A stretch of 64,000 nt of DNA from Adineta ricciae. Its lineage: Eukaryota > Rotifera > Eurotatoria > Adinetida > Adinetidae. Made by a program: the position numbers and the translations under genes. Below the pieces are notes generated by a model. The model was given only the letters and a program-made list of their open reading frames with translations, was not told the DNA's origin and searched no databases. Below, piece by piece: positions 51,333 through 64,000 of the stretch; the first letter of the stretch is position 1, and each line of letters starts with the position of its first letter. The stretch lies in NCBI GenBank assembly GCA_905250025.1, contig CAJNOJ010000399.1:1-64000 (forward strand), written 5' to 3'.

Positions 51333-51626
51333 TAGGGGTGTTACTTTATCTTTATTTTTCTTTAAATAAAGAATAAAGAATTTTTTTACAATTTTTGACC
51401 AAACACAATAAAATTTTTGATATTCACAAATTAAATTAACGGGGAGTTATGTCGTGAGACAAGATGTTACATTTTACCTAAGATTAGGTTCATTTTCTGA
51501 CTTAACATATAATCTCACACTTGGCTGAAAAATTAGGTATGTTACTTTTTCTTTACTTTTCTTGAAATAAAGAATAAAGATAATCTTTACTTTATAAATA
51601 AAGTAAAGATAAAGTAACACCCCTAA
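51333..51626. mobile_element. Non-autonomous hAT-type MITE (294 bp) with 8-bp target duplication
   Basis: The ends are perfect 22-bp terminal inverted repeats: the left end starts TAGGGGTGTTACTTTATC at 51333, and the right end is its reverse complement finishing at 51626. The element is flanked on both sides by AGCATAAC (51325-51332 and 51627-51634), an 8-bp target-site duplication. TAGGGGTGT ends and an 8-bp duplication are hallmarks of hAT transposons. There is no open frame inside, so mobilisation would need a transposase from elsewhere. The left end is repeated imperfectly inside (51534-51580). Confidence 0.88.
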
Positions 51627-52340: not shown

Positions 52341-54388
52341 ATGAAATCGTTGCGTCGTTTATATGGAGAAGTATGTTTCATGAAATAAAAACAACAGAAA
52401 TTGTTTGAGAATCTAATGTATTAGTTCATCAGGTGGCCATTAGTGCCGCCTATTACAAATATCGAATGAGCCGACAAAAAACTTCTCCAGGTATACCATT
52501 ACCACCTTCATCAACTTATTCAAGTAAATATTCCACACCGGCACGTTCAGTACCACTCGGAACAACTACAAATGTTGCCGCAATAGCAAGATCTATTAAT
52601 AATATGAGCATATCAGCTGGAACTAGTCGAACGCCGTCGTCAACTGAACGACCACTTCGATCAACCAGGATTACTTCGCTTCGAACGGGATCGTCTAGTC
52701 AAGATCGATCAGTATGCAATTTTTCTTTAAGGTTCGTTCGAAAGATTGTTATTTGATCGATCAATTTTTTAGAATGTCCAAACAAATGGAATTACTCATG
52801 ACCATACAGAACAAACAATGAATCCTACAGCGACTGTTTATAGTATCTCTTCGAATAATGAATCTTCAATTTCAAAAATCTCATCAACCGCAACTGCAGT
52901 ACCGAAGACAACAACAAATTCTCAATCAAATTTAATGAATGGTGGCCTATGCGGTCTACAGAATCTCGGAAACACAGTAAAGTTCATCGAATGTAGTCCC
53001 TTTCTTCAAAGAATCAATCGTTTAGTGTTTTATGAATTCGGTACTACAATGTTTATCGAATACAAAACCTCTTTTATTGTATTGTTTGGAAGAGAATCTC
53101 GACGATCAATTGAACACATCAACAACAAGCGTGATGAAAGGCGTTCTAATGAAAGGTTTGTGTGCAAACAAAATCGATTGTACTGAGCTTTTATATGATT
53201 GATTACGTTTTAGAATATGCTAGTTTAATTCGTAAGATGTGGTTATCATCCGACAAGCGATCGATTGTTAGTCCATCGTCTTTCAAGAATACGATTGGAA
53301 AGTTCGCTCCACGTTTTACGGGTTATTCGTAGGTGAAAAGTTTCACTGAATATCAACTATTGATTTGCTTCTCTTTTAGCGAACAAGATTCACAAGAATT
53401 TCTACGGTATCTTTTGCAAGGCTTGAGCGAAGATGTGAATCGAGTACGGATTAAGCCAGCAGCGATTACTGTTGACGAAAAACAAGAAGAACGAATGAGG
53501 TAAAATAAGAAGAAGATTAGCATTGAAAGACAATGTTTCATCTTTAGGGAAATCGATCGCGCGAAAGCCAGTTGGCAACGCTGCTTAAAATATGAGAATA
53601 GTCGACTCGTTGGTATGTTTGACTGGAAGGAAGTTTTAGTAAATTATCGATTTATTTTGAAGATATCTTCGCTGGCCAGTTAAAAAGCACTCTAGAATGT
53701 TCGTTTTGTCAATATCAATCGATAACCTTTGATATGTTTTGGGATCTATCGATACCTTTGCCACGTGTAAGTAGTGAACGACACGAATAGAACAAGAAGC
53801 GGATTTTGTTGTCTTACAGGATAAATCATCAACTAGTTTACAAGAATGTTTTCAATTATTTATGAACAAAGAAGAACTTGATGGCGACGAGAAACCGGTA
53901 AGAGAAAATGAAAGAACTGAATATAAATTTTCTTTATCTTCGGTTGTGTTAGATGTGTGCTAAATGTAAACAAAAACGTCGATGTACCAAACAACTCTCA
54001 ATTCAGAAATGTCCCGAAATTCTTGTTCTTCATCTCAAACGTTTTTCTCAATCTTTTGGTCGAGGGAAACTCAACAATTTAGTAAAATTTCCCATCGAAA
54101 ACCTTCGACTCAACGAGTTCATATCCGAAAGTGCCGAAGGTTTGTTTCTTCCATCAATTCTTCTCATTCCCTTCATATCTCAATCTTCCAGGACCACCCC
54201 CAATCTACAATTTATTCGGCATTTCAAATCATAGTGGTTCACTTTACACCGGCCACTATGTCGCTGAATGTAAACATCCGTTCACACATGAATGGCATGA
54301 ATTTAACGATTCAAATGTTCATACAATCAACGATGAAGAGAGTATCATATCGTCGAATGCATATGTGTTATTCTACGAACGACAATAA
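52341..54388 (+). CDS. USP2: Ubiquitin-specific protease, USP2/USP21 type
   Basis: Exon 1 is only 30 nt (52341-52370, MKSLRRLYGE, donor GTATGT), and the next begins VAISAAYYKYRMSRQ at 52433. A Ser/Thr-rich disordered N-terminus of about 150 residues leads to the catalytic domain. The Cys box is GLCGLQNLGNT|CFMNSVLQCLSNT (split by an intron), with EQDSQEFLRYLLQGL, the zinc ligands CSFCQ and CAKC, and LSIQKCPEILVLHLKRFSQS. The His box is SNHSGSLYTGHYVAEC, followed by HEFNDSNV and SNAYVLFYERQ at the end. Family members remove ubiquitin from cyclin D1, fatty-acid synthase and other substrates in vertebrates. PNPLA follows 314 nt downstream, same strand. Confidence 0.93.
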
Positions 54389-54688
54389 TCGAGAAGAAGG
54401 CTTTTTTTATCGTTTGTTTGTTGAAGTTGAATTCTTTTTTTTTTTAATATCTCAGATCTTCCGAATGACGAATATTTTCAAAATTGTTTCCCCTCTTGAG
54501 TTTGTTTTTCAGTGTGTTTACACATACGACAATGCTTTAACGGATTGTAACTAAATCAATGAAAGCCCAGCGTGTTTTGTTTGACGTTTTCTTCGTTTTT
54601 TTTTCTATGCATAATGAACGATTGAATCTGTTTTCTTTTTTTGAAATATTTTATAGAAAAATCGAAAGGATTTATCAATCTACTTTGT

Positions 54689-54702: not shown

Positions 54703-57700
54703 ATGAATATTACTCAATATATCCCTGAACAGTTCTCGTTCTTAAATGGACGTTTAGTAAGTAGTGAATAACACTTCTTTGGTTTGCTGATTTTGCTCCT
54801 TAGATATTTGGAGATCGGATTGAAACTACAATTGTTGGCTTTTGTTTGTCTACTGTTGTCGTTCTACTTTATTATCTTATTCGGCGATCGCAAGCGAAAA
54901 CTCGAAGTAGGAGATTTGCTGTTTTTGGAAAGAGAATTTTAATTGATTTTTAGCAACGGAAAACGCGAATCGATTTCGTAAACGTGATAAAGTACTTCAT
55001 TATGGAAAACGCTTTCTACGTACCGTAAGACACTTTGAATTGTTTGAGTTTTCATTGTGGAAAATTTACTAGATGCGATCGTATTCGTCTACTGCACGAA
55101 ATCGCATTCGACGTAAAACACGAAGGTAAAAGGAATTTGAATGATAATAAATCAATTAGACTTGTGTTTTCATTATAGATTTCATCAACAAAAAGCTCCA
55201 TCAGAGCAAAGCTATCTTTCACAACGTAAACCTCCGGAATTCTTGCTAGACACGGATGGTGATGGAGCCGATGGATCTAATCAACATCAAATTCCACCGG
55301 AAATCTTATATCTATTGAAAAGTGTCAAGTCTGTTATCGGATTTAGACGGAAATTCATAGAATAATTCGTTTTCATCTAGAGTTTTCGGTCATTTTGAAC
55401 GGCCTATTTTTCTTGAACTGTGCAAGTATTTAGAAAGTAAAACTGTTCTCGCTGGTGCTTATATTTTTCGAATTGGTGATGCTGATGATAGTTTATACAT
55501 AGTACAAAAAGGACTTCTACACGTATTTATTACAGACGAAGTAAAAATCCAACGTGTCTTATGATTTGATTTCAAACAAAAGACATTTTACTTCTAGAAA
55601 CATCATCGACATTTGATTAAAGAATGTGTGGAAGGTGATACAGTGTTTTCTCTACTAAGTATGGTAGATGTGATGACTGTAAGTGACAAGAGTAATTTTA
55701 TGCATTAACTCAGCATTGAGTGGTTGTTCTAGGGTCATAGTAAACCATTTAAAACTGTTAGTTGCAAAGCAATTGAAGATAGTATTGTACTGAAATTACC
55801 GGCAGTTGCCTTTTTGAATGTATTCAAAGAATACCCGGAATGCATGGTTCGAATTATTCAAGTAAGTTTCACTTTTACAAGGAAAGTTCTGACTTGATTT
55901 TCATACGCTTGGTGTTTATTTAGATTCTGATGATTCGACTTCAACGTGTTACATTTCTTGCTCTTCATGATTATCTTGGTTTGACAACCGAATTGACTCG
56001 TTCATTTAATGATACATTTCGTGGTCAATCAGTTCATAAAACTCAAAAAGATGCTCATCACAACAAAATAAAACGTCAACAAAGTCTTATCCAGCCTAAA
56101 TCTGTTCCCGATACAACAACACCTTCTATTGATGTACTAAGCAATACAACTGATGAACAAGCAGATAACAATAACATTCAATTATCACGGTCGATCTCTA
56201 CAACATCGTATACTTCACCTTCGTCAGATCATACTCAAACTGTCACACCAGAAATTAGTGAACAGACTAATGAATTCGAAGGTTTGTCTGCACCAACGAC
56301 AACTGAGCGAACTGTATCGGTTTCCATACCTATGGAAAGACGTTTATCGACTTTTGCTGGTCAGCGATCGATGAGTGTGGTGGAAAGAAACTACATGAAA
56401 CCAGATTTTGAAGAAGCAGCAGCTCGTGCTCGAGTAAAAAATTCGTTAGATACAACGTTCTTTGAAAAACATAAGATAAGTTATCCAAATGTGTCGCAAA
56501 ATCGAACATCCAACTCATCCGCCGGCCATCGACGACCAAGTTTCTCCGACGTAACTAATCCGTCTTTTCATTTTCCATCCGAATTAAAGTTTTCTTCTAG
56601 CCTGATTACGGTCATCAATACTCTCGATCAGCAGGCTCAGGTAGTGATAGTGCTGGAAGTGAATATAACGAGCGCATGGACAGCTCAAATCTACAATCGG
56701 AATGGCCACAAGTTCGAGAAGCTTTAGCTAAAGCTCTTGGTGGGATTTGTCATATGTTCATTGAATATTAATGTAATTGTTTGCTTTGATCACAATAGGT
56801 TTTGAAGGAGATGTCACATTGCTTGATGATAAATTTCACATGCACCGTCTACCAGACAGATATACTCTGGCTCGAGAAGGTGAACAGTTGAATAAATTGT
56901 TCTTTGTCATACATGGGGCAATCGCGGCTCATATGCGAGAAATAAGTGGATCAAAGAAAGAGCGTAAGAAAGATTTTTCCAAACTACCTAAATTGAAATG
57001 TTGACGACTTCCTTCGCATTCGTTCTAGGTATTATGTTCATCAATCGAGAAAATGAAGTTAGCGGTCTTGTCAGTGTTCTTACTGGTGGTTCGTATTTTT
57101 CAATCGAAGAATATATCCATTGTGTATCCATTATTGTCTCCTATTGTAGAACCAACACTATTCTCTTACCGAACACATGGTTTAACAGATATTTGTACAT
57201 TAACAAAAGAGAGCATATATGACCTATTGCGTATTCAACCAAGTTTAGTCTTATCGATAGCAGCCAGTTAGTTCATTTCTATATTTTTGTCCGAAACAAT
57301 GCTTGTTTTGCCGTTTCTCATAGCAATGGTTCAACGAATGTCACCATTAGTACGTCAAATAGATTTTGCTCTGGAATGGATGCTCGTCGAAGCTGGAAAA
57401 GCTTTATACCGGTAGGAGCGAATATCGTTCAAATTGTTCGTAACATGCTTTTTGCTCTCGAATTCTTTCAGACAAGATTATAAACCACAAAATGTTTATA
57501 TTGTTCTCAATGGCCGTGTTCGAAGTGTCTTATTGACACAAGACAAGAAACGCCGTGAATTGATTGGTGAACATGGTCGCGGTGAAATGGTTGGTCTCAT
57601 CGAAGTTTTAATGGAAATGCCTCGACAATCAACAACAATTGCTGTTCGGTAAGTTCGTTTAGGTGAATTGATTCCTTGTGAACGACTTGTGTTTGCTTTC

Positions 57701-60700
57701 AGTGATACGGAATTAGCGGTAATTCCATCGGGGCTTCTAAATTATATCAAATGGCGTCATCCACGAGTCGTTTCACATTTGATTCACGTATTGTCACAAA
57801 AAATCTATGGAACCATGCAAAATACTTTGACCAATAGTGTTGGTTTAACAATGCCATTAGCTGATGGTAAAGAAATTTGTCTCTAATATGAACTAATCGA
57901 TCCTATTATGTAACGAAACGGTTTTTCTAGAGGAGTTTCAAGATCAAACGACTGCACTGAACAAAAACTTATCAACTGTTGCCATTGTTGCTGCATCGTA
58001 TGACGTTCCACTTGATTCATTCACATGTGAACTTGTTCATAGTCTACTGGCAATCGGTAAGACGATAACTCATGTTTCCGTCTTCTTTTTTCTTATATAA
58101 AAAGTGATTATCAGGACCGACACTTCATTTGACACAACAATTAATCATCGATCGATTTGGTGATAGTGCATTCGAAAGTATCAACGATTATCGGTTGAGC
58201 GCATGGCTTGGTCAACAAGAAGAATTACATAAAATTGTTGTGTATCAATGTGATAAACAATTAACGCCGTGGACCAAACGATCACTTCGGCAAGCTGACT
58301 GTATTCTCATCGTTGGTATTGGATGGAAAGAACCAGTCAAAGGATCAGTCTGTGTTTTCCTTTTGGTGAAGTCTTTTTTTATATGTCGTTGTTCTGTTTT
58401 TATCAAGGTTGAAAATGAAATTGAACGAATAGCAGTTCGAGCTCAAAAAGAATTAATTCTTTTGCATCGTATGGGTAGTTTAAAACCTAAGGGTACTGCA
58501 CAATGGTTAAAAGAACGGAATTGGTGTACATTTCATCATCATGTTCGATGTCCGGAGCGTGTTTTTCAAAACGTGAATCTGGAATGTTGGGTAAGACCAT
58601 CATCTTTGTTTTGATGGCTTTTCGAACAAAAAAGAAATCATGGTTATTCTTTGTATTTAGAATGATTATACCGATTTACTCGAGCCAGATCCCGACCCAA
58701 CAACCGATTTTGCTCGTATGGCACGCTTTCTAACTGGAACAGCTATTGGTCTTGTTTTGGGCGGTGGTGGAGCTCGTGGCTGTGCTCATGTCGGTATTAT
58801 ACAAGCTATGCATGAAGCTGGTATACCAATTGATCTCATTGGTGGAACAAGCATCGGAGCATTTATGGGTGCATTGTGGGCCGATGAATTGAATATCAAA
58901 GGGTATATTGAACGAGCAAGGGAGTGGTGCAAGGTAAGGATTTGACCAGAGTGTTTTTTTGATACATTAATCTTTGTTGATTGCAGAAAATGACATCTTT
59001 TTGGAGAAAATTAATTGATTTAACATATCCAATAACAAGTATGTTTACAGGTAAGTGAACAATACGCTGATGCTTATGGAAGATCAGTAATGAATGGATG
59101 GATTTTAAGGTGCTGGATTCAATGAAACAATCGAGGAAGCTCTTCTCGATGTACAAATTGAAGATTTATGGATTCCATATTTTTGCATCACAACAGATAT
59201 ATCCGCATCAAAAATGCGTGTACATACGACAGGTAAAATTCGACATCTTTCTTTTTCCTCTTCCTCTCTTTTGAAAGAAAAACAACGAAAAAAGACGTAT
59301 GTTGTTGTCAGAAATCGACTTGAATAAGGGTCTTCCCCTATTTTCTCTACAGGAAGTGTTTGGCGTTACGTACGTGCATCAATGACGTATGCATTTTATC
59401 TTCCACCTTTGTGTGACCCATCCGATGGCCATCTTCTTCTAGGTGAGATATTCTATATCAAAATGTCCACTTTGGAAGAATATGAACCATGAAAGAAAAA
59501 AACAAACTAAATGAATTTTTGTTTTTCGTTCAGATGGATGCTATATGAACAATCTTCCTGGTAAGATATTTAGATGAATAGAAAGAATTGATCGATAATT
59601 TCTATTCATTTATCTTTTATCTCACAGATTCCTGGACAGTTTTCTAATACACACAACATACGTCTTTTTTCGAGCGATGATTTTCGATGTTGTGCTTTAA
59701 TTTATTGAGATGCTGTTAATTGTCTGAATCTAGGATCATTATGGCGATATGTGAGAGCATCGATGAGTCTTTCAGGTTATTTTCCTCCGTAAGTTCATTT
59801 CGTTCTTCTTTTGCTCGACTGATTTTTTCGATCTGTTAGATTATGTGATCCAAATGACGGGCATTTACTACTTGATGGTGGATATGTAAATAATTTACCG
59901 GGTAAGATATGCTCATTTTCATCGATAATCAAAATTTACTCCAGAAGAAAAGCAAAACTGTCCAGGAATCTACATCTGACTATTGAATTCTATCGTTTCA
60001 ATTCTTTTAGCTGATGTTATGTATAAACTTGGGGCACATACGGTTCTTGCCGTCGATGTAGGTGCACAAGATGAGCAGAATTTCTATAATTTCGGTGATC
60101 AGTTATCTGGTAAGATGAAAAAGAGATTCGTCAATTTTTATAAAGTGACGATTAACTTTAGGCTGGTGGCTTTTGTATAAACGTTGGAACATTTGGTCAA
60201 CACCGGTTAAGGTGCCTGAGTTGAGTGAAATTCAGACACGTTTAGCTTATGTTTCATGTCAAAGACAATTAGAAATAGTAAAAAATTCTAACTTCTGTGA
60301 ATATTTACGTCCACCAATTGATCGTTATCGAACTTTACAATTTGGTCTATTCGATGAAATTCGAGTTCGTTCTTCTTCGATTAAATTTTTGCATTCATAC
60401 AGAAGTCTTTCTCTCTACAGGATGTTGGCTATCATCATGGTAAAGCTGTGTTTCACGGTTGGTCAAAATTGGAATCGTATGATGCAGTTTTTCTCAAACA
60501 AAAGCTCAAATCATCTCGAGAAAAACAATCGCGACTCGTAATGATTCATTGGTAATATTTCTCGAATTTAATATCGAATTTTGTTGTTTTAGCGTAAGCA
60601 AGAATCGACTGCAACCAAATTCATCGATCTAGCAGAATTGATAACACGTGTACCTGACGCAACTAAAGAAGAAGATGACGATGACGATGATGATGACGAC

Positions 60701-61012
60701 GATGAAGCGAACGATAATGATGAAATTGGTAAATACGATCATTTTCAAAATATCTATCTTCATCTCTTGTATTTCGTCCATTAAGAAACAACAAACACTG
60801 AAGATTCGCACACTTCTATATCGAGTAATACGAAACGGCGAAGAAGAAAAGTTTCACATACAAGTCATCGTTGGCTTAGTACAATAAGCGGTGGTGGTAA
60901 ACGATATAGACGGCGCGTTCGATTACGTTCACGACCTGAAACACCAGTTATGCCTGTTGAAACCGACAGTCAACGAACATCATCAGCAATAGCTCCAAAT
61001 GAAGATATTTAA
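54703..61012 (+). CDS. PNPLA6/7: Neuropathy target esterase-type lysophospholipase with duplicated catalytic exon pair
   Basis: A large gene of roughly 1,500 residues and some 30 exons. An N-terminal ER membrane anchor ([20 protein letters not shown]) comes first. Cyclic-nucleotide-binding-like domains follow: [17 protein letters not shown] and [10 protein letters not shown]; then [11 protein letters not shown] and [13 protein letters not shown]; then [16 protein letters not shown] with [15 protein letters not shown]. The patatin domain has the oxyanion loop [14 protein letters not shown], nucleophile [31 protein letters not shown] and [13 protein letters not shown]. The catalytic-Asp segment is encoded twice: 59353-59442 plus 59534-59560 (ending DGCYMNNLP), and 59734-59788 plus 59840-59901 (ending DGGYVNNLP). 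Shared downstream sequence is [20 protein letters not shown]. The C-terminus has an Asp/Glu run and Arg-rich tail. It deacylates phosphatidylcholine and lysophosphatidylcholine at the ER. The start is the first ATG preceding the anchor. Confidence 0.95.
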
Positions 61013-61288
61013 TCAATTCGTATATGTTAATCAAGCTCATCAATATGTACAATGTACTCTACTTCTTTTTCCTTGGCAGTCCGGTGCTTTCACACATATT
61101 ATTTATTGTCTCTTATTTGTTTCCTTCATTTGACTGTTAATTACACATTTTTCAGGCATATATCTACTCGAATTAAACATGAAATTTTACAGCTAAAATA
61201 TTTCGTCTTCTCATAAAGTGATAAACCATTTATTCATTAAAACAAAAAGATAAATGTCTCTTTGATATCGTTCATTAAATTCCATCAT
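61013..61288. other. convergent 3' ends of PNPLA6/7 and VEGF-like gene
   Basis: 276 nt of AT-rich 3' flank shared by two converging genes. Nothing else seen. Confidence 0.5.
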
Positions 61289-62374
61289 TCATCCGGAAAC
61301 TGTTTCACATCGTCTAAAAGAAAAATAAGAATGTTCGCTTTTTGATAAGAGAAGTTTTTCTTCTTACGTGCACATCGCATTCGGTCGTTGATTTGCATTT
61401 GAACAATAGTTACTTGTTTGTCCCGGTAAACGTCGGCGACATGTACATTTTGGTTCATTACTACCAGGAATCATTGAACATGTTGATGAGATCAAACACT
61501 CCGGTGTACAACGCGGCTTGATACATTGACATAATGTCGCATCTAAAACCTACAGATACTTTGCAAATGAATTGAGAATAGAATTGAACCTTACTTTGCC
61601 TTCATGTTGACATTGATTTTCGGTCTTACCACATTTACATTCACATTTCGTATGATTCATTAATGTCCATGGACGATTGATTTCGTATTTATCAGTATCA
61701 TCCAAAGAAATCAATAGTAACTACATGAATAGAAAATAGAACATGTTGCGATATGCAATTTGACCTACTGGACTAAATGTAACTGGCTTTTCTTCGACAG
61801 CTACACAAGGAAATTGTGCTTCTTGACAGCAACCACCACAACGATGAACTTCAAGACATTGTGGATATGATATCATATTATTTCCCGATGAGCGATCAAC
61901 AGGCACCGGTTCGCAGATAACACGAGGTTCACAACCACCATTTCGTGGTTCGGTCAGTGATCGACCATCTGTAAAACCGAATTACTATTAGATAAATACA
62001 ATTCGATCAATCGACATACTTTTATTCAGACGTCGTGCAGTAGTGAATATCTCCTGTTGTTCCTTTTTCAATGCTTCCGGGGCCATCATCGCTAAAAAAA
62101 AACCAGAAACGATCAGGATTAATCAACAAAAATACTTGTATTCTTACACATTCGACCTGCTTTGCTTGAAGTTTTGAGAATAATCAACGCTTCTTGAATC
62201 GACTTTGCTCGTGATAATTGAGCACGAATTAAAGCTTTGTGATGTTCGTCCTAAAGAGAATTGTGATAAAACAAAGTCCGAACTTTTTCATGGCAATCTT
62301 CTCACTTCATTACAGTTAATATGATTAATCAAAAGTACCAGAAATACTATCGTCGAGAAGAACACTGCCTTCAT
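61289..62374 (-). CDS. PDGF/VEGF-family growth factor, copy 1
   Basis: Starts at ATG 62374 with a signal peptide (MKAVFFSTIVFLVLLINHIN, then CNE) and ends at TGA 61289-61291. After a helical propeptide-like segment (HHKALIRAQLSRAKSIQEAL) comes the cystine-knot core: GGCEPRVICEPVPVD, SYPQCLEVHRCGGCCQEAQF and CVAVEEKPVTFSPV. A Cys-rich tail (HTKCECKCGK..., CQCIKPRCTPECL, CTCRRRLPGQTSNYCSN) ends TRCETVSG. This is the PDGF/VEGF spacing, with RCGGCC intact. The Cys-rich tail resembles that of VEGF-C/D or insect Pvf factors. The product should be a secreted disulfide dimer acting on a receptor tyrosine kinase. Short introns (for example 62.3 and 62.1 kb) keep frame. Confidence 0.88.
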
Positions 62375-62611
62375 GCTGTTTGTTTTCTCCAATGAATCTA
62401 CTGACTCTTTTCGTCAGAATCTTTTTCTATGGGAAAATACTGTGCACCCACCATGTATTTATATCTAAATCGGTCTGTCTCCTAATGATAGATAAGACAT
62501 CTGTCATTTCTTGACTCATGATATTTCGCATATTTATTTATTATACATTATGTCATATCTAACAAATACACTGTCAAAAGATTCAAGATAGTTTTCATTT
62601 GGTGGTTATCT
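62375..62611. other. Spacer between tandem VEGF-like genes
   Basis: 237 nt between the stop of copy 2 and the start of copy 1. Promoter of copy 1 and 3' UTR of copy 2. Confidence 0.5.
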
Positions 62612-63731
62612 TCATGGATATTTCACACATTTTCTAGAAGAAAGAAAAGCGAAATTGATGAAATATCGAGGAAATATGATGAATCGATTTGTAATATACT
62701 GACTTGCAACGAGCATCAGGTTGATAACCCGAAGAACATGAATATGCGCCATTTTGACCTGGGATAGGTCGTTTGCAAACGCAGGATGGTTTTTCTTGTG
62801 TACTAAGCAATTGACAACGTTGCATAGCTTGACATTGAGGAAAACACGCTTGTTCTCGACAGCGACATAGTTCATGGTCCAAAACCTAAACGTTTCCATT
62901 GAATTTCAATGAAAGAGTCAGGAGAGAAACAGACTTGAGCACTACTTGGACAAGCATTCTCATCGAGTTTACATTTGCATGTGCATTCGGTGTGATTTTC
63001 GGTTTTGAATGGTTTCATTGCAGCGATAGGTGGACCGGAACCTTCGCCATGTTCGAATTTAATTATCTAAACAATCGAATTTCGTTCGGAATCAATCAGA
63101 AAGACGGTTTGCTTACCGGACTGAATGAAACATATTCAATTTTCGTTGGTTCACATGAAAATTGTGCTTCTTGACAACATCCAGAACATCGATGTACTTC
63201 CACGCAGTTCGGAAAAACAATTCCACCTGATATTGCCTCTTGAGAATAAACAGGAACACATGTAATACGTGGTAAACAACCACCGTTCACATATGGCACA
63301 ATTTTATCGTCTAAAAACTGAAAATCTTCACGAAAAAAATGTTCCTTCTCAATCTTTACCTTTCGCCAGTTCGAACCCAACCAGTTGTGTATCGATATTC
63401 TTCTCAAGTTTACGAATATCCGCTGTAAGAAAACGACAATTCAATAATCAAGTAAAACAGTTCCCTCTTCTCTACTTTGCATAGCTACTTGATGTTTATT
63501 GCTCATACTCGAATCCGCATAAATAGCAAGCGCCTGCTTCAATGTCCGAGCTTTTGATAATTGCGCTTTGAAATTTGCCAGGACGATCTATTCAAATTGA
63601 AGCACCTCACAAATCGATATTTGAACATTGTCAAGTTCTACCTGATCACGTGTACCGCTAATCGACCCATGACATGAACAAATACTCAGAACGATAAGTA
63701 TGATTTGACCGAGTATAACTCTCCGAAGCAT
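62612..63731 (-). CDS. PDGF/VEGF-family growth factor, copy 2
   Basis: Starts at ATG 63731 with a signal peptide (MLRRVILGQIILIVLSICSC, then HGS) and ends at TGA 62612-62614 (..DARCKKCVKYP). The layout matches copy 1: a helical N-terminal segment (ANFKAQLSKARTLKQALAIY), a cystine knot (GGCLPRITCVPVYSQ, FPNCVEVHRCSGCCQEAQFS, CEPTKIEYVSFSPV) and a Cys-rich tail (HTECTCKCKLDENACPSS, HELCRCREQACFPQCQAMQR, CVCKRPIPGQNGAYSCSSGY). The motif is RCSGCC, where copy 1 has RCGGCC. Copies share exon order and intron positions, so they arose by tandem duplication, but they have diverged widely outside the Cys pattern. Confidence 0.87.
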
Positions 63732-64000
63732 TTTCTCGATCAAAAACGATCTTCGTATGGTCGATAAAAAGATATTTATGAATATGTCGTCAATGCTCGA
63801 TTCTTTCTTTTTTCTTCTTCTTCTTGTTCTTCTGTAGGATATTAATCATCAATGATATCTGCTTTATAGATACAAAAATATCGCTCATTAAACAAAGTAC
63901 AAAGATGCAGAAATCAATTTAGCAGAAACATCAATTTGGAGATAAGCGAATAATGATAGGAAGACAATCTAATCATATGTTAGATATGACACACAAATAC
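63732..64000. other. Upstream flank of VEGF-like copy 2
   Basis: 269 nt to the window edge. A CTT-rich tract at about 63802-63832. No gene seen. Confidence 0.5.

Follow-up and report, generated by a model that had tools for sequence, protein, structure and literature searches.

Two alternative catalytic-aspartate cassettes and two crossing intronic stems in a predicted NTE-type gene of Adineta ricciae

The gene and its two cassettes

We analysed a stretch of 64,000 nucleotides from Adineta ricciae (Rotifera; GenBank assembly GCA_905250025.1, contig CAJNOJ010000399.1, positions 1 to 64,000 of the forward strand), referred to here as the window, and within it a gene of the NTE (PNPLA6/7) type in which the segment carrying the predicted catalytic aspartate is present twice. 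Each copy, A or B, is a cassette of two exons, and the gene model places both between the same pair of common exons:

54703-61012, forward strand: NTE (PNPLA6/7-type) gene, ATG to TAA (61010-61012), 29 exons with one cassette, 1411 amino acids
58661-58933, forward strand: constitutive exon with the GGGGARG motif and the catalytic Ser (GTSIG; residue 1023)
59110-59232, forward strand: common upstream exon, ending in phase 1 (...MRVHTT/G)
59353-59442, forward strand: exon A1, 90 nt, phase 1 to phase 1
59534-59560, forward strand: exon A2, a 27-nt microexon, phase 1 to phase 1, DGCYMNNLP with the catalytic Asp
59734-59788, forward strand: exon B1, 55 nt
59840-59901, forward strand: exon B2, 62 nt, LLLDGG with the catalytic Asp (residue 1143)
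60011-60109, forward strand: common downstream exon, starting in phase 1 (A/DVMYK)

The model uses 26 donors and 26 acceptors set by hand, in addition to the sites of cassette A or B, and with either cassette the product ends at a terminal stop and has no internal one. Searches of Pfam with this product returned NTE_Ploop (PF24179, P-loop-like; 1.1e-57), cNMP_binding (PF00027; 1.1e-35, in three stretches) and Patatin (PF01734; 3.5e-28), and because of this combined set of domains we assign the gene to the NTE (PNPLA6/7) type, which corroborates the identity proposed in the initial annotation. Like the NTEs PNPLA6, PNPLA7 and Swiss cheese, it joins P-loop-like, cNMP-binding and patatin domains to GGGGARG, GTSIG and DG motifs; the roles of GGGGARG, of the Ser of GTSIG and of the Asp of DG are presumably those of patatin enzymes, in which the two residues form a Ser-Asp dyad. 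In the gene model the dyad consists of Ser1023, in GTSIG, and Asp1143, which is provided by either cassette. Among solved structures, the patatin-like protein PlpD (PDB 5fqu, 3.9e-28; also 5fya) is closest in sequence to the catalytic domain, and the search gave three more matches, all much weaker. The lysophospholipase/esterase activity expected of the NTE family is predicted for this gene too. A tblastn search with the B protein found only the gene's own exons and copy A, with no other duplicated exon in the gene and nothing outside it within the window.

Copies A (90 + 27 nt) and B (55 + 62 nt) are 117 nt long each, lie in phase 1 at both ends, have GT/AG at all borders and can both join MRVHTT/G to A/DVMYK; lengths, phases and every coordinate agree with what had been annotated at the outset. 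They are identical at 76 of 117 nucleotides and at 30 of their 39 own residues (31 of 40 counting the fixed downstream Ala), and, being adjoining homologous copies of equal length and the same phase, they are tandem duplicates. The intron inside A interrupts the Asp codon and the one inside B follows FPP, and this difference in position suggests that, after the duplication, one copy or both acquired or lost an intron. The lengths of A1 and A2 are multiples of three and those of B1 and B2 are not. In-frame products are obtained with A alone (1411 amino acids), B alone (1411), A and B together (1450) and neither (1372). Skipping of the microexon A2 (59534-59560) alone would also give an in-frame protein, one that lacks the dyad Asp.

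The divergence between A and B, estimated by the Nei-Gojobori method, is saturated at synonymous sites (pS 0.79) and much lower at nonsynonymous ones (pN 0.20). When 20,000 neutral random walks were taken from B to 41 differences, on average 15 of 40 residues remained identical, with a maximum of 24 of 40, and 10% of the walks were free of stops; the observed 31 of 40 exceeds that maximum, so the resemblance of A and B is not due to chance. By these measures both copies are old and kept by purifying selection, and the saturation of synonymous sites together with the conservation of residues makes it unlikely that A is a long-dead duplicate.

Two crossing intronic stems

We searched the entire window for inverted repeats (seed 14, minimum length 18 nt, range 1500 nt) and found two pairs of perfectly complementary arms in the introns around the cassettes, which had not been part of the initial annotation:

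59286-59305, forward strand: arm a of stem 1, 20 nt, in the intron upstream of A, 100% complementary to 59653-59672
59626-59643, forward strand: arm b' of stem 2, 18 nt, in the A2-B1 intron, 100% complementary to 59954-59971
59653-59672, forward strand: arm a' of stem 1, 20 nt, 9 nt downstream of b', from the inverted-repeat search
59954-59971, forward strand: arm b of stem 2, 18 nt, in the intron downstream of B, from the inverted-repeat search

Stem 1 (59286-59305 with 59653-59672; 20 of 20 Watson-Crick pairs) encloses exactly A1 and A2, and stem 2 (59626-59643 with 59954-59971; 18 of 18 pairs) encloses exactly B1 and B2. Along the RNA the order is a (59286), cassette A, b' (59626), a' (59653), cassette B and b (59954), which means that the stems cross; since their arms interleave, both cannot form in one nested fold and jointly they would make a pseudoknot.

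Six inverted repeats were found in the window, namely three self-overlapping palindromes, the terminal repeat of an intergenic element and the two stems. When the 435 pairs of different introns of this gene were compared, the longest perfect complement was at most 10 in 433 of them, and the other two (20 and 18) are those that enclose A and B; between the first and the last of the three introns with arms it is 6 bp, and no perfect hairpin inside a single intron exceeds 11, the length reached in the A-to-B intron. The 778-nt segment that holds cassettes and arms was shuffled 3000 times with its dinucleotides preserved; the longest repeat was 17 (once) and never 18, the second longest did not exceed 12, and in 20 shuffles of the whole window the longest reached 15 at most. 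With as many as 3 mismatches allowed, no further copy of the arms was found in the window. The 18-nt arm has one exact match in a collection of viral contigs (locus L102), for which the chance expectation was not computed.

Arms can be perfectly identical because they were copied from a template not long ago, and in other animals back-splicing is promoted by complementarity between the flanking introns. The inverted repeats could accordingly be mutational products, left by template switching or as the termini of small transposons, without a role in the choice of cassette, or they could favour a circular RNA made of A1 and A2; a 293-bp element with 26-nt terminal repeats does occur elsewhere in the window (51333-51625). 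We consider these readings quite unlikely, since there are two unrelated perfect repeats, one for each homologous cassette and unique among the intron pairs, since their arms are present nowhere else in the window, and since there is no target-site duplication at 59286-59672 and only a 2-bp match (AC) at 59626-59971.

In the model of Ivanov and Pervouchine for the origin of such systems, the arms were duplicated along with the exon (PMC6071210; here and below, published systems are described as in the passages of the sources available to us). Unlike in that model, the introns flanking A and B show no direct similarity beyond that of shuffled sequences, the scores of the three comparisons (I_A/I_AB, I_A/I_B and I_AB/I_B) being matched by 67, 150 and 200 shuffles out of 300. 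The best of 12 intron comparisons, between the intron before A and the intron inside A, was reached by 6 of 300 shuffles, uncorrected. Similarity of these introns stemming from duplication may have been erased by age. As they stand, the arms carry no sign of an origin from exon duplication, which bears on how such systems arise.

Folding was computed as secondary structure only, without proteins or pseudoknots. As isolated duplexes, stem 1 has an energy of -27.9 and stem 2 of -28.3 kcal/mol, and the best pairing of an arm with a non-partner reached -13.4 kcal/mol, compared with -28 to -29 for own partners, which rules out a shared docking site of the Dscam exon 6 type. The fold of 59110-60109 has an energy of -249.5 with stem 2 (the best), -244.4 with stem 1 and -214.0 with all arms unpaired, and the stability of the segment relative to shuffles corresponds to a z of -5.1 (20 shuffles). 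Which stem folds depends on where the RNA ends: in RNA starting at 59110 and ending at 59680, 59720, 59800 or 59900, stem 1 folds (20 of 20 pairs), and with the end at 59975 it is still ahead, with a mean pair probability of 0.68 versus 0.31; with the end at 60010 it is stem 2 that folds (18 of 18 pairs), at 0.93 versus 0.05.

A candidate splicing switch

Splice sites were scored with a weight matrix derived from the donors and acceptors of the gene outside the cassettes, 26 of each. Acceptor and donor scores were 6.0 and 7.2 bits for A1, 8.5 and 10.6 for A2, 6.5 and 8.7 for B1, and 3.0 and 10.2 for B2, all inside the range of the gene's other sites; the acceptor of A2 outscores 21 of the 26 other acceptors and its donor 25 of the 26 other donors, and the acceptor of B1 is average (above 13 of 26). 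The donors of the cassette region are GTGAGAT, GTAAGAT, GTAAGTT, GTAAGAT and GTAAAAT. The introns that carry arms measure 120, 173 and 109 nt and those inside A and B 91 and 51 nt, and the 25 introns outside the cassette region measure 47-70 nt.

These figures bear on the other published mechanisms for clusters of two exons (PMC6071210), by which A and B could exclude each other through steric hindrance, through U2/U12 incompatibility or through nonsense-mediated decay of the double form. Steric hindrance is ruled out by the middle intron, which has 173 nt in a model with introns down to 47 nt. Nonsense-mediated decay or frame-shift enforcement is ruled out as well, for the form with A and B is in frame and gives 1450 amino acids; so is U2/U12 incompatibility, all donors being U2-like, as judged from the donors alone against the U12 consensus. 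Exclusion by any of these means is extremely improbable.

Both copies are under selection, their splice sites are in range and the competing stems offer a mechanism, all of which supports the reading of A and B as mutually exclusive with which the initial annotation had left off. We think it very likely that they are mutually exclusive two-exon cassettes for the same 39 residues, catalytic Asp included, and that competing intronic stems pick between them by looping one out. Judged by its sequence, the arrangement is that of the published bidirectional-pairing layout of mutually exclusive exons.

We infer that A and B exclude each other in vivo by loop-out of one or the other, with kinetics and a locking step as follows. 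Stem 1 (a with a') would loop out A and bring 59232 near 59734, and B would be used; stem 2 (b' with b) would loop out B and bring 59560 near 60011, and A would be used. Crossing as they do, the stems would hinder each other, the middle intron bearing one arm of each. Splicing of 59232 to 59353 would take out arm a and leave stem 2 to exclude B, and splicing of 59901 to 60011 would take out arm b and leave stem 1 to exclude A; since all arms lie in introns that are removed, the first splice would be self-locking. Stem 1 could form first during transcription, stem 2 would be slightly favoured once arm b has been made, and the ratio of A to B could be set by the speed of the polymerase or of splicing, or by a protein bound to an arm.

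A number of observations weigh against such a choice between exclusive cassettes. A and B in series keep an open reading frame, so that exclusivity is not imposed by the frame, and the form with both matches the Patatin profile at 111 bits, in two stretches. In the finished segment the share of stem 2 is predicted at 0.993, 0.989, 0.986 and 0.975 at 10, 20, 25 and 37 C, and with an equilibrium fold so one-sided the use of both A and B would need kinetic or protein help. The predicted openness of the splice sites shifts by at most 0.11 between the stem states, which rules out that the stems mask splice sites; because openness barely shifts, their action would have to be looping, not masking. 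A pseudoknot with both stems may be physically possible, with loops of about 320 and 281 nt, and would loop out both cassettes. A looser search nearby gave two imperfect repeats with 81-82% complementarity. Finally, AGs that are not acceptors score like real sites (59443, 9.9 bits; 59776, 6.9; 59945, 5.8), and the acceptor matrix discriminates weakly.

Some of these observations would also fit transcripts of which a part contain A and B in series, giving a protein of 1450 amino acids with a duplicated active-site segment, the stems merely tuning ratios. This is favoured by the stop-free frame, by the 173-nt A2-B1 intron, which is spliceable and ends in the average acceptor of B1 (6.5 bits), and by the 111-bit match of the double domain, but the patatin fold would probably not survive a doubled strand and Asp loop, either stem would take out a single cassette, and no long pair of arms encloses both (6 bp between the first and the last intron). 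We regard use in series as unlikely.

The mutually exclusive reading has close counterparts among published systems. Bidirectional pairing is described for srp exon 4, for hymenopteran Dscam exon 4 and for lepidopteran, hymenopteran and coleopteran Dscam exon 9 (PMC6071210, PMC8042237, PMC6027157), the pairing of Dscam exon 9 in beetles being a prediction of the same kind (PMC8042237). In srp, as Ivanov and Pervouchine report after Yue et al., there are two pairs, each around one exon, the inner arm of the second lies upstream of that of the first, and a pseudoknot impedes joint pairing (PMC6071210). As in srp, two separate complementary intronic pairs, one per copy, are interleaved here, with b' upstream of a'. 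Unlike in srp, each alternative is a cassette of two exons with internal introns at different places, the arms are perfectly complementary, the stems are unrelated in sequence and the switch fits within 778 nt; moreover, the gene is of the NTE type, the swapped piece bears a catalytic residue, and the arrangement is known here from one sequence.

Control by a docking site and selectors is described for Dscam exon 6, 14-3-3zeta and MRP1 (PMC6071210). As in those systems, competing intronic pairing would decide which homologous exon stays, but unlike in them each arm pairs strongly with its own partner alone (others at -13.4 kcal/mol at best). In human ATE1, elements R1-R5 compete around exons 7a and 7b, R1 and R4 competing for R3, and the elongation rate affects the ratio (PMC11802352); the likeness lies in two mutually exclusive exons under competing stems, and the difference in the two separate crossing stems found here as against the rivalry of R1 and R4 for R3.

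In the literature searched, mostly open papers and as far as their accessible passages go, we found neither mutually exclusive or alternative catalytic-Asp exons in an NTE/PNPLA6 gene nor mutually exclusive exons in a rotifer. Splicing ratios of mouse Pnpla6 change in sepsis, the exons being unnamed in the passages (PMC11607010), and PNPLA6 has an edited intronic site (PMC7462079); the accessible passages of papers with both PNPLA6 and mutually exclusive exons, and of a house fly paper, describe no such exon pair. Alternative catalytic-Asp exons set this gene apart from the NTEs reported in the passages at hand, where none were found for the family.

Consequences at the active site

The swap was assessed by a residue tally over the best-scoring 96 prokaryotic patatin loci (L006-L101), drawn from sets of 4, 396, 297 and 296 genomes with matches in 4, 143, 236 and 270 of them (three of the first four recur in later sets). 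Ninety-five of the 96 loci aligned over the segment, one being dropped as it had no alignment there, and 90 of the 95 segments are distinct; as the tally is prokaryotic, absence from it does not extend to animal NTEs. Read from the spliced cassettes, B has DGG where A has DGC, and SLSG in the middle where A has TYAF, as first noted. Near-invariant positions are kept in both A and B, namely S137 and P146 (92 of 95 each) and D158, G159 and P166 (95 of 95 each). A departs from B at nine positions. Its T139, Y140, F142 and C160 occur in 0 of 95 relatives each, compared with 40, 16, 76 and 77 for the residues of B at the same places; its V130, L144, S151 and M162 are found in 33, 11, 2 and 8 of 95; and at position 141, which is Pro in 93 of 95, the Ala of A and the Ser of B occur once each. 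Y133 and Y161, which A and B share, likewise occur in 0 of 95, and this tempers the oddity of A. Against the Patatin profile, B scores 103.3 and A 89.7 bits.

A lower profile score, the four residues seen in none of the 95 prokaryotic relatives and a stem 1 that loops out A would all be compatible with a copy A that is decaying and always skipped, stem 1 acting as a silencer and B alone being used. Nevertheless, A is free of stops and has retained 31 of 40 residues at saturated synonymous divergence, its splice sites are in the normal range, D158, G159 and P166 are retained, and stem 2, whose evident effect is only the removal of B, would make no sense. Decay of A is accordingly very unlikely. 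With A and B both taken as functional and exclusive, A would retain the dyad Asp and change the adjoining segment in a way that appears unusual among these relatives. It is possible that isoform A has a different substrate preference, a lower activity or a regulatory role, and from the sequence we infer some difference in activity or substrate, the form with altered activity being the one we favour.

Protein searches reached few other relatives of the segment: in the viral contigs one locus (L001) matched, with 36% identity over query residues 156-194 (39 residues; E 5e-4), and in the genome contigs four bacterial loci matched out of 572 candidate stretches, with no animal relative reached.

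A wider proposal is offered tentatively, as one that could nearly as well hold as fail. The locus would be a self-locking RNA switch of 778 nt, one setting of which would give a canonical active site (DGG, from B) and the other a non-canonical one (from A, with DGC, with TYAF for SLSG and with the Asp on a 27-nt in-frame microexon). Folding during transcription would set the chemistry or the on/off state of the enzyme, the excluded unit would be a pair of exons, and the layout would be independent of the arthropod cases. If this were true, control by competing stems would be very compact, with two cassettes, two stems and no shared docking site in 778 nt, and every element of the switch would fit a small minigene. 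The bidirectional layout of the srp type would then occur in another gene and probably in another animal lineage. Splicing would moreover select the active-site wall and the catalytic-Asp segment of an NTE, and nature would thereby provide two active sites to compare on a single protein scaffold.

The A-to-B intron has further features near its start. An acceptor-like site, TATCTCACAG/ATTCC (59627/59628), scores 3.5 bits, above 6 of the 26 acceptors, and its AG coincides with the first two bases of arm b'. The would-be intron after A2 (59561-59627) has 67 nt, a usual intron size for the gene, and a mirtron-like shape; spliced from A2, the site would give DSWTVF followed by a stop codon. Possibly the site is a decoy that stem 2 masks. 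The only match of the region to a known RNA family is a full-length and weak one to mir-1010 at 59545-59633, below threshold (21.6 bits versus a gathering score of 70; E 0.098), which covers a local hairpin at 59571-59612 and is probably due to chance.

Elsewhere in the window, the AT-rich intergenic element at 51333-51625, whose terminal inverted repeats begin TAGGGGTGTTAC..., has TA at both edges and looks like a small non-autonomous DNA transposon. The upstream neighbour of the NTE-type gene, on the forward strand at 52400-54400, resembles a ubiquitin-specific protease on reading, an impression formed with no search made. On the minus strand at 61250-63750 there are, by the same kind of reading and likewise with no search made, two similar cysteine-rich genes that appear to form a tandem pair.

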